From Candidatus Woesearchaeota archaeon (GTDB lineage: Archaea; Nanobdellota; Nanobdellia; Woesearchaeales; 21-14-0-10-32-9): a stretch of DNA of 64,000 bases. Every line of letters begins with the position of its first letter. Position 1 is the stretch's first letter. The notes beneath the pieces were generated by a model. It did no database searches and was not told the DNA's origin. It was given only the letters and a program-made list of their open reading frames with translations. The translations under genes were made by a program, and so were the position numbers. The DNA is taken from positions 1 through 64,000 of the forward strand of contig JAHKLZ010000018.1 in assembly GCA_020854775.1 (NCBI GenBank), read 5' to 3'. This document shows, piece after piece, positions 28,233-34,985 of the stretch.

Positions 28233-29189
28233 TTATTCAGGTGTGTATACTACTGTTACTGTTTCGTCTATGTACGTTGAATAGTCGTATCCTAGTGTTA
28301 TTCTGAATGGTTGCACTCTTGTGTTTCTGTCTGCTAGTGTTATTGTACAAGATACTTCTCTTGGTTCGTTCTTCGTCAAGGTTATGTATCCTGATGAGCT
28401 ATCTCCTCCTATTAAACCTATGCATCTTACTTCGTCTGTTGTTCCTGTTACTAGTCCTGTTACGCTTACGAATACTCTTTCTTCATCTTGTTGAGCAGTA
28501 CTACATTCTGTGTTTGTTCTTGAGACTTTTCCTGCTGGATTAAGATCTTTTTGTTGTATTGAGAATGTTATTGTGGATTTATCTCTTCCTTGTGGTGCTT
28601 GTCTTATGCTTGTTACTTGTACTGGTGCTCCTGAGTTTGATACTGTTCTTTCACCACTTACTTTACATAAGTCTCCTGCTCTGTCATCGTTGTAATTTTC
28701 TTTTACACAAATATCTGTTATTGCTATTGTTTCGTATGTGTAACAAGCTTTTGCTCTAAAAGTAAAAGGTACATTTGCTGGAGCACTTAGTTGATAATTT
28801 AATCCTTCAAATACTACAGGTATTGATGGTGATGTTATTATTGATCCGTCCGGACTTTTTCTTACTGCGAATAAGTCATCTTCTGGGTGTGCTATTAAGT
28901 CGTTGTTTGTTACTCCGAAAGAACTAGCTGAGAATCCTTCTAGTTTTACGAATACATCTTCTCTTAGAACTTCGTGTTCCCCTCTATTTGTTAGTTCTAT
29001 TACTACGTCAAAAGGTTCTTGTCCTCCATCTGATACTTTTTCTGGGGGCGCGTTTGTTACAAAGGACATTTCTATTCCTTTTGTTCCACCAACAAATCCT
29101 GTTTGTTGATTTGGAGCTTGTCCTTCTTCGCACGCAGTTAATAATAGTAGTGTAACTGCGAGTATTATTAATAGTATTTTTTGTTTCAT
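28233..29189 (-). CDS. Lipoprotein, third of three paralogues
   Basis: 318 residues. A signal peptide ends in a lipobox LLTAC with the lipidated Cys at 20. Next comes the shared motif GTKGIEMSFVTNAPPEKV, then a beta domain (DVVIELTNRGEHEV), then a Cys module: ACYTYET, ICVKEN, LCK, SGAPVQVTSI. A second beta domain with three Cys follows. This order is the same in the two upstream genes, so the three are tandem paralogues. AGGAGG precedes the ATG. The folds look immunoglobulin-like (CARDB type), suited to extracellular binding. Function unknown. Confidence 0.75.
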   Translation of the reverse strand: MKQKILLIILAVTLLLLTACEEGQAPNQQTGFVGGTKGIEMSFVTNAPPEKVSDGGQEPFDVVIELTNRGEHEVLREDVFVKLEGFSASSFGVTNNDLIAHPEDDLFAVRKSPDGSIITSPSIPVVFEGLNYQLSAPANVPFTFRAKACYTYETIAITDICVKENYNDDRAGDLCKVSGERTVSNSGAPVQVTSIRQAPQGRDKSTITFSIQQKDLNPAGKVSRTNTECSTAQQDEERVFVSVTGLVTGTTDEVRCIGLIGGDSSSGYITLTKNEPREVSCTITLADRNTRVQPFRITLGYDYSTYIDETVTVVYTPE

Positions 29190-29222
29190 ATTTTTACCTC
29201 CTTTAGGGTTTTTTTTGTTTGA

Positions 29223-30542
29223 TTATCTTACTCTTCTAACTGTTATTGGTGGTGCAGGCGCGTGTTTTTCGTATCCGTACCATAGTTCTAGTCTCAGTGG
29301 TGTTTCGTATGCGCTTCCTATGTATGCTGAGTCTGCGATGTCGTATCTGCATCTTAGTGTTGCTTCGTTTGTTCTTGGATCTAGTCTCATTCTGAACGTG
29401 TTTCCACAATCTAGTAATCTGTCTTCCATTATTGCATATCCTACGTATATCACGTTTTTCATTGAGTCTCTTACCGTTGATGGATAATATGGGCTGCAGT
29501 ATTCTAAGTATCCTACGTCCCAGACTTCTCCCCCGCCTATATTTCTTATTGTCATTTCTATGAATACGTTGCTTCCTGTGTTTTCTGTTCTTATGTTGGT
29601 TACTGCGACTGGTGCTCCTTGTGAGCTTTGTATTTTTTGTGAGTAGTCACTGCATACTTTTTTTTCTGATGAGAATGGATCAGGGTCTATGCATACTTGT
29701 GGACTTACATAAGTCGTGTATGCGTAGCACGTTCTTATTTGATAATTTAATGTGTAGTAATCTGTTCCTGCTGGCCAAGGTCCTACCATTTGCATTTGGA
29801 ATGTTTTATAGTCTGCTTCTCCTCCTGGGAATTGAGGGTTGTTTCCGTGTAAGTAGAATGATGCTCCTCCGAATGATTCAAAGTCTAGTGATGATACTAA
29901 TAGCATTAGTGATCTTCCAAAATTTAGAAGTCCTAGGTTTGATCCTAGTGAGAATTGTGTTAGTTCTCCATCTCTTAGTTGTAATCTTACATCGTTTATT
30001 CCTAAGTCTACCACTCTTTGAAATATTGGTATGTTTTCTGCTAGTGTTCTGAAGTTTACATCTATGTTTGTTCTGTCGCCGTATTTGCTTATTCCTCCTC
30101 CTGTGCATCTAGTCATGAAGTTCCATGTTCCTACGTCTTTTATGTCGCCTACGTTGAAGATGTCTAAGTAGCATGCTTGTGATGTTCTTAATCCGTCTAC
30201 TGGTCTTTTTCCCATTGAGTCTATTCTGAATAAGTCAAATGTTGTTAGGCTTATTCCTGTTAGGAATACTGCGCCGTACGCGTCTGATGCTCCTTTGTTA
30301 TCTACTCTTAGGTTTACTTCCACCATGTTTCCTTCAGCGGTTCCTGCGTCTAAAGTGTTGTAATAGAAATTTGTTGGTGGTCTATTCATGTAGGTTTCTA
30401 CTCCTTGTGATCCTACGAAGTATCTGCAGTGGTCTCCTGTGCATGCTGGTGTTCTTCCAGGCATTCCACTGCACGCAGTTATTAGCAGTAAAGACATTAT
30501 TAGACTTGTTAGTATTATTTTTTTCACGAGCTCTTTTTTCAT
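29223..30542 (-). CDS. Lipoprotein, second of three paralogues
   Basis: 439 residues from ATG 30542, with GTGAT 5 bases upstream. The lipobox is LITAC, Cys at 24. It shares GSQGVETYMNRPP, a beta domain, the Cys module (TCYAYTT, VCIDPD, VCS, QGAPVAVTNI) and the final three-Cys domain (YCSPYY, DCGN, RCRYD) with its neighbours, but carries about 100 additional residues before the Cys module. Probably exposed on the outer face of the membrane. No known function. Confidence 0.75.
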   Translation of the reverse strand: MKKELVKKIILTSLIMSLLLITACSGMPGRTPACTGDHCRYFVGSQGVETYMNRPPTNFYYNTLDAGTAEGNMVEVNLRVDNKGASDAYGAVFLTGISLTTFDLFRIDSMGKRPVDGLRTSQACYLDIFNVGDIKDVGTWNFMTRCTGGGISKYGDRTNIDVNFRTLAENIPIFQRVVDLGINDVRLQLRDGELTQFSLGSNLGLLNFGRSLMLLVSSLDFESFGGASFYLHGNNPQFPGGEADYKTFQMQMVGPWPAGTDYYTLNYQIRTCYAYTTYVSPQVCIDPDPFSSEKKVCSDYSQKIQSSQGAPVAVTNIRTENTGSNVFIEMTIRNIGGGEVWDVGYLEYCSPYYPSTVRDSMKNVIYVGYAIMEDRLLDCGNTFRMRLDPRTNEATLRCRYDIADSAYIGSAYETPLRLELWYGYEKHAPAPPITVRRVR

Positions 30543-30607
30543 TTTTATCACGCTTATGTTGTTTAATTTGATACGATTAGTATATAAATATTGCTTTTTG
30601 TTTTTTT

Positions 30608-31687
30608 TTATGATGTTCTTTGTATTCTTATTGGTTTAGTTATTGATTCTCTGTAGTAGTAGTCTAGTTCTATATATAATGGTACTTCTAGGTTTTGTCT
30701 TAAGTATCCTGTTTGGTTCGGGTGTAATCTACACGTTATGAAATCTGATGATAGTGCTAGGTTTAATGTGTTTTTTGTTCCGCAATCCATGTCTAGTCCG
30801 TCTAGTGTCGCGTTTAGTAATTTTACTTTGTTGTGGTCTCTGTACATGAATGATTCGTCTCTGAATGTACATAAGTTCATTGTTTCTGTGTTTTCTTGTT
30901 TTGATATGAATACATCTCCTCTTCCTAAGTTTCTTGCATATATTCTTATTACGGGTTCTACTAGTACTAATGTTCCTGCTCCTGATGTTAGTTCTAGTCC
31001 TATTAGTTCTCCTGTTTCGTTAACTACGGGTGCGTGGCTGTCTGTTACTGGTGATTCTATGAATCCCATTGGTAGTATGTCTACTTCTATCTTTGTTATC
31101 GCGATGGGTGCTCCTTGGTTTGAATGAATATATGTTTCTCTGTTTCTACATATTGGGTTTTTGTCTACTCCGTATATGTCTGTGTCTAAGCATATTGTTT
31201 GTGTTAGGAATGTTTTGTAAGGATAGCAAGCTACTAATTCTATGTTCGTTGTTGGTGTTTCTCTTGTTCCTAGTATTTGTAAAACGTTTAGTCTTGTTAA
31301 GGGCAGTAGTAGTCTTTCTCCTGCGGGCCATTCTTGTGATTTTCCTGCTAATTCATTTTTTAGTAGTCCTTCTGGGTTTTGTGATGTGAATAAGTATTCA
31401 TCTGTTAAGTCTTCTTTGAAGTATATGTCGTCGTATTTTAGGCTCAGTAATAATTCGTTTTCTGGTATGTTGTATGCTCCTTTGTTCCATATTTCTATCA
31501 TTATGTTTGTGAATGAATTTTCTTGTACTGTGTTTGGTGGTGCATTATTCATGAAGCTTAATTCTATTCCTTGTGTTCCTCTGTACGTGTCTGGTATTTG
31601 ATGGTTTGTTGCACATCCTTGTATTGTTATTAGTGTTAGTACTAGGAGTATTATTTTCGTTGTTTGTTTTTTTGTTTTTGTTTTCAT
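30608..31687 (-). CDS. Lipoprotein, first of three paralogues
   Basis: 359 residues. The signal peptide ends in TIQGC, the lipidated Cys at 25. GTQGIELSFMNNAPPNTV, ACYPYKT, ICLDTD, ICRNRE and QGAPIAITKI follow in the same order as in the other two. The last domain has LCTFRD, DCGTKN and TCRLHP. Its ATG overlaps the stop of the large membrane protein gene by 4 bases, tying the lipoproteins to that protein. Confidence 0.75.
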   Translation of the reverse strand: MKTKTKKQTTKIILLVLTLITIQGCATNHQIPDTYRGTQGIELSFMNNAPPNTVQENSFTNIMIEIWNKGAYNIPENELLLSLKYDDIYFKEDLTDEYLFTSQNPEGLLKNELAGKSQEWPAGERLLLPLTRLNVLQILGTRETPTTNIELVACYPYKTFLTQTICLDTDIYGVDKNPICRNRETYIHSNQGAPIAITKIEVDILPMGFIESPVTDSHAPVVNETGELIGLELTSGAGTLVLVEPVIRIYARNLGRGDVFISKQENTETMNLCTFRDESFMYRDHNKVKLLNATLDGLDMDCGTKNTLNLALSSDFITCRLHPNQTGYLRQNLEVPLYIELDYYYRESITKPIRIQRTS

Positions 31688-33684
31688 ATGTTTCTCACAT
31701 CTATGAATTCTCTTCTTGTTAATTTGTAATCGTATGTTGTTGATCCTGCTATTGTTATGTCTCTTTTTCCTGTCGGATCATTTAGTAGTGTTCTTGCTCC
31801 TGTTGCCGTTATTTCTGCGTTGCATGAAACTGTTAAGTATTTTCCTGGTAGTTCTTCGCTTACTTTGAATGAGTAAATATCGTATCCGGTTACTTTGTCT
31901 TTTGTTTTTTCTAGTTCTGTTCCTGTTATTCCACCAGGCATTATGCATTTTTCTTTTGATATTTGTATTTGTGGTGGAACTCTTATTTGGAACGTGTTTA
32001 CGCTTATTAGTTCTCCTCTCGCTGTTCCTGTTGGTGGTCTGTCATCTATTGTTATTCCTAGTGGTATGCTGTTTGTTTGATCTGTTTGTGTTGATATTGC
32101 TAGTGGTAATTCTAGGTTATCGTTTAGTCCTAGCATGATTGGTCCGTTTGTGTATATTGTTCTTATTCTTGGTTGGATGTTGTATCTTCTTTGTATATCT
32201 ACGTCATTTAAGTATAGGCTTGATAAGAAGTCTCGGTCCATGAATGATATTGTTATGTATGCCCATGTTTCGAAGTTAAATTCTACTTCGAAGAATACTT
32301 CGTATCTTCCTCTTGGTAAATTAGTTGAGTTGAATGAGCATTTTACTCCTCGGTAGTCTTCTCTGTATACATTTATTAGTTTTGGTGGATCCGTTGTTCC
32401 GTATGCTACGAATTCTCCTCTTGCATCTTTTGCGTAGCAACTCGTTGTTAGGTTTATTTCATCTACGAAGCTTCTCATTCTTAGTGTTGCGAATAGTTCT
32501 ACTGGTTGTCCTTCGTAGTATGTTCCCATTGTTCTTAGTTCTGTTATGAATACTCCTGTTAGTTCTTTGTTTTGTTCTACTTGTCCTGTGTAGTATTCTC
32601 CTAGTGAATCATTTCTTAGTTGAGTGTATGTATTGTTTAGCTGTGTGCCTATTCCTTTTATTGCGTTTAGTACACTTTCGAAGGGTGTTGATATTATTTT
32701 TATGGCTCCGCTTATAGCTATTCTAGTATCAAATCCTGATCCTGTTATTCCTGCTTGTTCTGATCCTAGTGTTGCTAGGTTTATCATTAGTGACATTAGT
32801 GAGAATGTTATTATTATGAATAATAGAACTGTTAGTCCTCTTACCCATCCTGATGGTTTTAATATTCCGTCTTTGAATCTGTCCCATCTCGTGGCTCCGT
32901 TTAATGAATAATCTATTCCTGATAAGTATAATAAGTATAATGCGTATATTGGTAGCATTAGTGAGAATCCTGCTATTATTTCTGTTACTTCTGGTGATAC
33001 TCCTAGTAATCTTACTGTGTAGTCTAGTAGTGGGATTATGAATAGTACTACTGCTGCTGGTTTAAAGAATTTGAAGAATGCGTGAAAGAAATGGCTTAGT
33101 TGTCCTACTAGTATTGATGTTAGTATTAATAGTATGAAGTATATTGTTATTCTTCCTTGTATGGCTCCTGAGTCTATTGATAGTCCTGTTAGTGTCCAAT
33201 CGATTATGTGAGCTATTAATGCGAGTAGCATTATTATTTCTGCTAGGAATCTGTCTTGAGGCATAGGTACGTTCTTTGATGATAATACATTACCTATTTT
33301 TTTGAATAGTGTTTTTCCTCCTCTGAGTATTCCTCGTCCTAAGTTTTTTGTGCCTCTTGCTGTTTTTCTTAGTCCTTGTCCTATGTTTCTTCCAGGAATA
33401 GTTGTTCCTTCTCCTATGTCTTCATAATTATTTTCTGGTTCCTCAGTTGTTTCTGATTCTTCATTTTTTTCTTCGTGTTCTTTTATTCTGTGATAATTAT
33501 TAGTTCTTACAAAAAAAGTTGTTTTTTTTCCATTACTTTGTATGTATAGTAATTGTACTCCTTCAGGGTCGCTCATAGGTTGTACTACTTCGCAAGTTAT
33601 TACGTCAGAACCATCAGCTTTTGTATAATCTACTTTATCTCCTTTTTTGTATGTTTTTCCGTTTATTTCTATTTCGTCGCTCAT
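31684..33684 (-). CDS. Large membrane protein with extracellular beta domains
   Basis: 666 residues. Residues 1-70 are a small beta domain (INGKTYKKGDKVDYTKADG), probably cytosolic. An acidic linker and a Gly/Arg/Lys-rich stretch (to about 135) follow, then five transmembrane helices (about 145-305), then about 350 residues of beta-rich sequence with a few Cys, probably outside (GTYYEGQPVELFATLRMRS; LPRGRYEVFFEVEF). It lies between an anchored protein and three lipoproteins with coupled starts, so it may be the membrane core of a complex. I recognise no family. Confidence 0.75.
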   Translation of the reverse strand: MSDEIEINGKTYKKGDKVDYTKADGSDVITCEVVQPMSDPEGVQLLYIQSNGKKTTFFVRTNNYHRIKEHEEKNEESETTEEPENNYEDIGEGTTIPGRNIGQGLRKTARGTKNLGRGILRGGKTLFKKIGNVLSSKNVPMPQDRFLAEIIMLLALIAHIIDWTLTGLSIDSGAIQGRITIYFILLILTSILVGQLSHFFHAFFKFFKPAAVVLFIIPLLDYTVRLLGVSPEVTEIIAGFSLMLPIYALYLLYLSGIDYSLNGATRWDRFKDGILKPSGWVRGLTVLLFIIITFSLMSLMINLATLGSEQAGITGSGFDTRIAISGAIKIISTPFESVLNAIKGIGTQLNNTYTQLRNDSLGEYYTGQVEQNKELTGVFITELRTMGTYYEGQPVELFATLRMRSFVDEINLTTSCYAKDARGEFVAYGTTDPPKLINVYREDYRGVKCSFNSTNLPRGRYEVFFEVEFNFETWAYITISFMDRDFLSSLYLNDVDIQRRYNIQPRIRTIYTNGPIMLGLNDNLELPLAISTQTDQTNSIPLGITIDDRPPTGTARGELISVNTFQIRVPPQIQISKEKCIMPGGITGTELEKTKDKVTGYDIYSFKVSEELPGKYLTVSCNAEITATGARTLLNDPTGKRDITIAGSTTYDYKLTRREFIDVRNI

Positions 33685-33715
33685 TTTTTCTTTAGAGAAT
33701 AGTTTGTTTTATTTT

Positions 33716-34909
33716 TTATTTTTCTCTTATTCTAATTCTTATCTCTGTTATTGTTAGTTCGCTTTTAGGATTTATTTGTATCGAGTTAGTTCCTGGTTGT
33801 AAGAAGAACTGCATGCTTCTTGTTTCTCTTAGTCTCGCTGTGTTGAAGCTTATTGGTTTTCCGTTTATTGTTAGTTCGAATCTTTTTTGGTTATTGTTTG
33901 GAAAAGTTATATCTAGCATTGTTTCGTAATTATTTTTTAGTTCGTATTCGTCATTTACGAAGTTGAAGTATTTGTCTTGTACTTCGAAGTAATATGTTAA
34001 TGTGTATGGTTTTTCTAGTGAGTTTTGTATTATTGCTCTGTCTATGAGTACTCGTCCTTCTTCTATTTGAAATGTTATATCATTTATTCCTTCGTACAAG
34101 TAGTTTATTGGTATTTGTATTGTGTTGAATACTTCGCAATCTGGTATTCCTGAGAATATTTCAAAGTTATTTATGTGTACTCTTAAGTTCTTGGTTGTTT
34201 CTGGTTTACATGCTGGTAAGTATCTTATGTTTGATGCTTTTAGTTCGTTTGCTTCTTTTGTTGCTATGTTGAATACTTGTGTTGCTTTGCTTCTTGTTAG
34301 GTCCGTTATGTCTCCGTACAAGTTTATGTCTTTTATTGTGTAATGATTGTATCTCCAGAAGGCTGCTCCTGGTCCTGATACTTGGAATTGTAATGTGTTT
34401 TCTTGTCTTAACAGTGATGGTGCTATGTTTATTGGTGGTGAGTTTCCTGGTCTTATTGGCGCGTTATATATTGTTTCTCCGTTTAAGTGTATTATTAGTG
34501 AGCCTGATGATTGTTCTACGTTAAAATTTAGTAATATGTTGTTAGTTGTTTCTGGGTTTATTTTGAATGTTATTGTGTCTGTTATTTTTTCGAACGCGGA
34601 ATTTTTTAAGTACATTGAGTTCTTTGTGTGTATTAGTTCTCCTTTCACTTCCGCGTTTAAATTAAATGGTGAGAATTCGTGTATTATTTCTGTTTCTGGA
34701 GAATATTTGACTTGTCCTGGTACTGCTCTTATTAGTGTTGTTGATCCTGGGAATAATGGGTCTTCCCCGTTAGTTGTTGTTTCATCATTCAATAGTTTTT
34801 CTCTTTCTTCAGGGGATATGGATAGTACGAATAGTACTAGTAGCCCTGTTATTATTATTACTAGAATTGCAGCATGATTTCCTGCTTGAGCTTTTGTTTT
34901 TTTTATCAT
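33716..34909 (-). CDS. N-terminally anchored extracellular beta protein
   Basis: 397 residues from ATG 34909, with GTGAG 7 bases upstream; an in-frame GTG 4 codons earlier overlaps that site. The start (KKTKAQAG-NHAAILVIIITGLLVL) is a short basic leader, AG, then one hydrophobic helix, somewhat like a class III signal, followed by SPEEREKLL. The rest is beta-rich, with jelly-roll-like segments such as LIIHLNGETIYN and LRVHINNFEIF. First gene of the lipoprotein cluster, likely one operon of five. Role unknown. Confidence 0.7.
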   Translation of the reverse strand: MIKKTKAQAGNHAAILVIIITGLLVLFVLSISPEEREKLLNDETTTNGEDPLFPGSTTLIRAVPGQVKYSPETEIIHEFSPFNLNAEVKGELIHTKNSMYLKNSAFEKITDTITFKINPETTNNILLNFNVEQSSGSLIIHLNGETIYNAPIRPGNSPPINIAPSLLRQENTLQFQVSGPGAAFWRYNHYTIKDINLYGDITDLTRSKATQVFNIATKEANELKASNIRYLPACKPETTKNLRVHINNFEIFSGIPDCEVFNTIQIPINYLYEGINDITFQIEEGRVLIDRAIIQNSLEKPYTLTYYFEVQDKYFNFVNDEYELKNNYETMLDITFPNNNQKRFELTINGKPISFNTARLRETRSMQFFLQPGTNSIQINPKSELTITEIRIRIREK

Positions 34910-34985
34910 ATGGATTCTCACATTGTTTAAACGTGAATATTCCTATATAAACGTTTTGTTTTTTTTGTTCGTGGTTTATTCTCGA

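Follow-up and report, generated by a model that had tools for sequence, protein, structure and literature searches.

Closest described systems and the five-gene block

Archaeal enzymes that cut murein, among them those of Nanoarchaeota and Woesearchaeota, are read as anti-bacterial in the parts drawn on here of a paper on bacteria-killing peptidoglycan hydrolases of archaea (PMC12352652) and of one on 'vampiristic' Woesearchaeota (PMC9723730), where they appear as modular enzymes or as genome content. The system described here is a block of five co-directional genes on the minus strand (ORF calls; 34909 down to 28233) of a 64,000-nucleotide stretch (the window; contig JAHKLZ010000018.1, assembly GCA_020854775.1) from a Candidatus Woesearchaeota archaeon, encoding an anchored beta protein (P5), a membrane protein (P4) and three lipoproteins (LIP-A, LIP-B and LIP-C), all five of which were found in the list of open reading frames (ORFs) where a first-pass annotation had placed them. 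What is new is that, in relatives, hydrolase domains of five kinds are fused to P4 or LIP-A, subunits of this conserved, membrane-anchored set. The known catalytic domain of secreted archaeal peptidoglycan hydrolases is thus shared by 15 relatives and not by the five proteins of the window, and, unlike a free secreted enzyme with a wall-binding domain, these tips form part of a membrane protein or of a lipoprotein, each of which has immunoglobulin (Ig)-like domains.

In the portion of Castelle et al. 2021 (PMC8204110) that concerns Module 98 and fam00969 of DPANN archaea, lytic transglycosylase families are reported, and bacterial hosts and attachment to their walls are proposed. That module is a statistical one derived from co-occurrence, and the portion mentions neither an operon or membrane complex nor any set of paralogous lipoproteins with exchangeable hydrolase tips; whether DPANN archaea have bacterial hosts is said there to remain to be seen. 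The present block is not described in the portions of PMC8204110, PMC12352652 or PMC9723730 considered here.

None of the five window proteins gave a match above cut-off in Pfam, NCBIfam, PADLOC or the sequences of the PDB, ruling out assignment to a known family in these libraries and agreeing with the earlier impression that the set belongs to no recognised system. No PADLOC model for known anti-phage defence matched any of the five. Nor can a family be named by fold, as LIP-C and the P4 outer domains match generic Ig-like folds (integrin, transglutaminase, adhesins), with template modelling (TM) scores of at most ~0.2 by query length in PDB fold searches and no overall match.

Peptidoglycan-hydrolase domains fused to P4 or LIP-A

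A C-terminal peptidoglycan-hydrolase domain is present on P4 (13) or LIP-A (2) in 15 genomes of 15 families, and the domains belong to five unrelated Pfam families or folds, namely SLT, M23, Amidase_2, glucosaminidase and M15. By Pfam, P4 ends in SLT in four loci (L066, L082, L099 and L118), in M23 in four (L068, L071, L119 and L122, where the frame of L119 is taken as P4 only because it lies between the P5 and lipoprotein genes), in Amidase_2 in two (L073 and L103), in glucosaminidase in two (L067 and L100) and in M15 in one (L080), while LIP-A ends in SLT in L075 and L120. Homologue sequences throughout are mechanical ORF calls. Most tips contain motifs of active enzymes as judged by eye, such as AQES...GLMQF (L066), HWGLD...HLHF (L122) and SAHAWGVAVD...DPMHFE (L080). 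Across 60 genomes, ~100 frames contain SLT or M23, and approximately 10 of them map inside the block, against ~0.4 expected by gene number, where the counts were read by hand and 1200 genes per genome were assumed. Since either P4 or LIP-A can bear the hydrolase and their genes are adjacent and overlap, the two subunits are likely to stand together with their C-termini outward.

The P4 homologue L073:2853-6221 has a weak lysozyme-like match besides its strong Amidase_2 match and thus seemingly carries two wall-acting domains. Extensions spotted by eye as NlpC/P60 (L111), RlpA (L125) and lysozyme (L104, L117 and L121) have no Pfam support and are not counted. L111 and L125 are two P4 genes on two contigs of one genome (G038), whose C-terminal extensions differ and are named by no Pfam model.

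The archaeal small-subunit gene of replication factor C (RFC) adjoins the block in all seven tip-bearing loci with mapped flanks, which rules out a contaminant origin of these seven contigs. No Mur-ligase match was found in the genome of the window, and 59 of the 60 genomes have at most one, so that murein synthesis of their own is rejected for these 59, which apparently make none. This near-absence of a Mur-ligase set makes action on the archaeon's own wall unlikely, and bacterial cell walls are therefore the likely target of the tips. One Woesearchaeal genome (G015, contigs C2 and C7) has three Mur-ligase-domain frames, representing either contamination or a real pathway.

The genome of the window encodes a separate SLT protein (L158:1867-2808) and a separate M23-like protein (L159:2849-3709); each begins with what looks like a signal sequence, and the two are apparently secreted. 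Beside the SLT gene, L158:1435-1839 encodes a membrane-anchored thioredoxin-like protein with a CGFC (CxxC) motif, which may serve in disulfide formation at the outer face.

Such a variety of hydrolases, together with the degradative lifestyle proposed for Woesearchaeota in PMC9723730, would also suit a scavenging complex, which would break down debris of bacterial walls at the cell surface to obtain sugars and amino acids, with no living partner being touched. However, lineages that lack the enzyme still keep the core, the genes beside the block include no recurrent family of uptake transporters, and we regard scavenging as very unlikely.

Conservation and distribution

The conserved gene set is well supported. 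Profile searches found the lipoproteins in 58 of 60 relatives and in all 37 high-quality genomes (37/37), and a single-sequence query found P4 in 38 of the 60; P5 is present in 165 of 186 high-quality genomes of the phylum, and a class-wide search was positive for 176 of 281 genomes. Sampling was by family within the phylum, and several genomes are fragmented. GTDB order and class names for the relatives are inferred, while those in the close LIP-B alignment are Woesearchaeota. Neighbourhoods from ~47 families have the genes in one direction and in the fixed order P5-P4-LIP-LIP-LIP, often beside the RFC gene and a gene resembling Pelota by its first residues. Conservation of the neighbours, on which the first-pass annotation had staked its proposal, is thus borne out across dozens of families, in the same order and strand, and is not due to chance. 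Other orders of the class have a shorter block consisting of P5, a P4 homologue with mostly one helix and two lipoproteins. Seven of eight lineages lacking the block have no ATP synthase, which is therefore uninformative for naming them.

Lipoproteins LIP-A, LIP-B and LIP-C

The three lipoproteins are LIP-A (30608..31687, minus strand), which adjoins P4, LIP-B (29223..30551, minus strand), which has a long insert and extra cysteines, and LIP-C (28233..29189, minus strand), which has Ig-like beta-sandwich domains; in the tree they fall into the position-1, position-2 and position-3 clades, respectively. They are alignable over their length and share their motifs, as expected from the common architecture first noticed in the window. 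The alignment contains the lipobox cysteine, G-x-x-G-(I/V)-E, a PP motif (APPE, RPPT and APPN), and, in its later part, CY-x-Y-x-T, two more cysteines, (Q/S)GAP(V/I) and three cysteines in the last domain. The lipobox cysteine and six later cysteines are each 88-100% conserved among 178 lipoprotein homologues. The AlphaFold2 model of LIP-C (mean predicted local distance difference test score, pLDDT, 93) has beta-sandwich domains behind the lipid-anchor signal.

A tree was made of the 105 lipoproteins encoded by 35 loci with three copies each. Operon position changes 5 times on this tree, where at least 2 changes are needed and shuffled labels give 49.6 on average. The three positions are three ancient, separately kept orthologous clades, which is what is expected of a hetero-oligomer. 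The suggestion of a hetero-oligomeric surface complex is strengthened to this extent, while the assembly itself is inferred.

Membrane protein P4

P4 (31684..33684, minus strand) is a 666-residue membrane protein. In its AlphaFold2 model, an N-terminal cytoplasmic beta domain (residues 1-60) is followed by five long hydrophobic helices spanning residues 143-303, then by a stalk helix at 320-360 and, on the outside, by a pair of beta-sandwich domains at 377-664; the outer part is confident and the helical region less so. Four cysteines of the ectodomain are conserved in 97-100% of 60 homologues. The ectodomain aligns with the lipoprotein profile with a score of 37.1, against at most 20.4 in 30 block shuffles and 16.7 and 15.5 for reversed sequences. 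Standing well above these controls, it is probably a fourth, distant paralogue of the lipoproteins by this profile comparison.

Anchored protein P5

P5 (33716..34909, minus strand; ORF call and family alignment) has ~397 residues and consists of a positively charged N-terminus with a K-A-Q motif, one hydrophobic helix and a beta-rich outer part; no signal of homology to the lipoproteins or P4 was found. The pattern [KR][KR]?[GA]Q occurs near the N-terminus in 38 of 60 P5 homologues, compared with 68 of 574 ORFs of the same loci. The N-terminus thus resembles class III, prepilin-like signals and may be cleaved as they are. A Peptidase_A24 gene is present in 58 of 60 genomes and lies close to P5 in at least one locus of another order (L144). 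These features recall archaeal type IV pili, from which P5 differs in its large beta-rich outer part; genes for a pilus assembly ATPase or a platform protein do not recur among the partly annotated neighbours in the block.

The prepilin-like N-terminus and the peptidase also bear on whether the block encodes a secretion, conjugation or DNA-uptake channel, in which P4 would correspond to VirB6 and the fused hydrolases to VirB1, opening the wall for a trans-envelope conduit. A polytopic membrane protein with a wall hydrolase in host-dependent microbes does resemble type IV secretion as proposed for Patescibacteria (PMC12102498). The VirB1-like hydrolase, however, is found in relatives only, covalently fused to P4 or LIP-A in many lineages, and is absent from the operon of the window. 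P4 and its homologues have no VirB6 or TrbL match in Pfam, nor in NCBIfam for those scanned, and no similarity to curated secretion families was found. No VirB4 ATPase or other type IV secretion part was recognised in the block, where neighbours are partly annotated and no genome-wide search for VirB4 was made, and in the neighbourhoods mapped the block has no other recurrent gene family next to P4. As the P4 outer domains are Ig-like and its homologue in other orders has mostly a single hydrophobic helix, a channel is considered improbable.

Two P5 homologues (L063:13789-15468 and L064:4589-6265) have a long Cys-rich insert, and the one scanned has no Pfam match. Directly upstream of P5 in a locus from another order lies the gene for a protein of 1211 residues that contains fn3 and DUF4215 domains (L140:3574-7206); this order belongs to the same class.

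Proposed contact complex

Our preferred interpretation, whose probability falls just short of even, is that the block encodes an undescribed membrane-anchored, disulfide-stabilised contact complex with an optional lytic tip for breaching the walls of bacteria, be they partners or prey. P4 would be the membrane platform of this outer-face complex, and its two outer Ig-like domains would pair with the tandem Ig-like domains of LIP-A, LIP-B and LIP-C, so that four subunits, related yet different, build a stalk or ring stabilised by disulfides. P5 would be a beta protein with an anchor of its own that perhaps binds a ligand or serves as a cap. Acting at contact with another cell, the complex would bind the surface of that partner, and a hydrolase carried on the free C-terminus of either P4 or LIP-A would locally open the murein of a bacterial partner or prey; cargo might pass through any such opening. 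In lineages like that of the window, separate secreted enzymes would supply the wall cutting.

Several observations weigh against this interpretation. No fused hydrolase is present in most operons, including that of the window and all family-f1 loci read, which makes the lytic activity an accessory one. Signs of degeneration are seen in some of the fused domains, such as M23 of L071, and the match in L076 is too weak to be counted. The homology between P4 and the lipoproteins is at profile level only (hhalign probability 29%, E 0.0006). In family f80, P5 occurs alone, with no P4 or lipoproteins nearby (L144, L145 and L154), and may therefore have a separate function. The block itself encodes neither a channel nor a source of energy, and the parts of the cited papers considered here show no bacterial host of a Woesearchaeote.

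A housekeeping envelope scaffold for the archaeon's own surface, with hydrolases as late add-ons for defence or self-release, would account for the near-universal presence of the block in the order, the adjoining housekeeping genes, the many operons with no hydrolase, and other C-terminal extensions in the block that are fn3-like, PKD or Cys-rich. It leaves unexplained, however, why five kinds of murein cutter occur at the same two termini in organisms with no Mur-ligase set, and it sits poorly with families f70, f72 and most of f78, where both P5 and the lipoproteins were not found. This alternative is judged unlikely, albeit the least so of those considered.

Woesearchaeota are a large group of tiny, probably partner-dependent archaea, and the hydrolase tips suggest how they might engage bacterial partners or prey. 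If the contact complex exists as proposed, a very large group of archaea would have it as a core machine of the envelope, one that lies outside all protein libraries searched. A wider and more doubtful proposal is that it could be a lineage-defining core contact apparatus of Woesearchaeales and related orders, namely a hetero-tetrameric Ig-like stalk whose exchangeable murein-cutting tips breach bacterial walls, with bacteria, not archaea, being the usual partners or prey. A near-universal block that has repeatedly gained cutters of bacterial walls offers concrete targets for protein localisation, structure determination and enzyme assays.

Gene layout in the window

The start of LIP-A overlaps the stop of P4 (ATGA), as in many homologous loci, while the remaining intergenic gaps in the block are 31-56 nucleotides. 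The coupled starts ascribed earlier to the upstream genes therefore hold literally for P4 and LIP-A and not for P5 and P4, which are separated by 31 nucleotides. LIP-B has a GTG start codon, with an in-frame ATG three codons downstream. A TATA-like box (TTTATATA; 34944..34951, minus strand), recognised by reading the sequence from 34951 to 34944 against the general archaeal TATA consensus, lies ~35-40 nucleotides ahead of the start codon of P5. The block is preceded on the same strand by a gene for a UDPGP-family nucleotidyltransferase, and the RFC small-subunit gene is its downstream neighbour.
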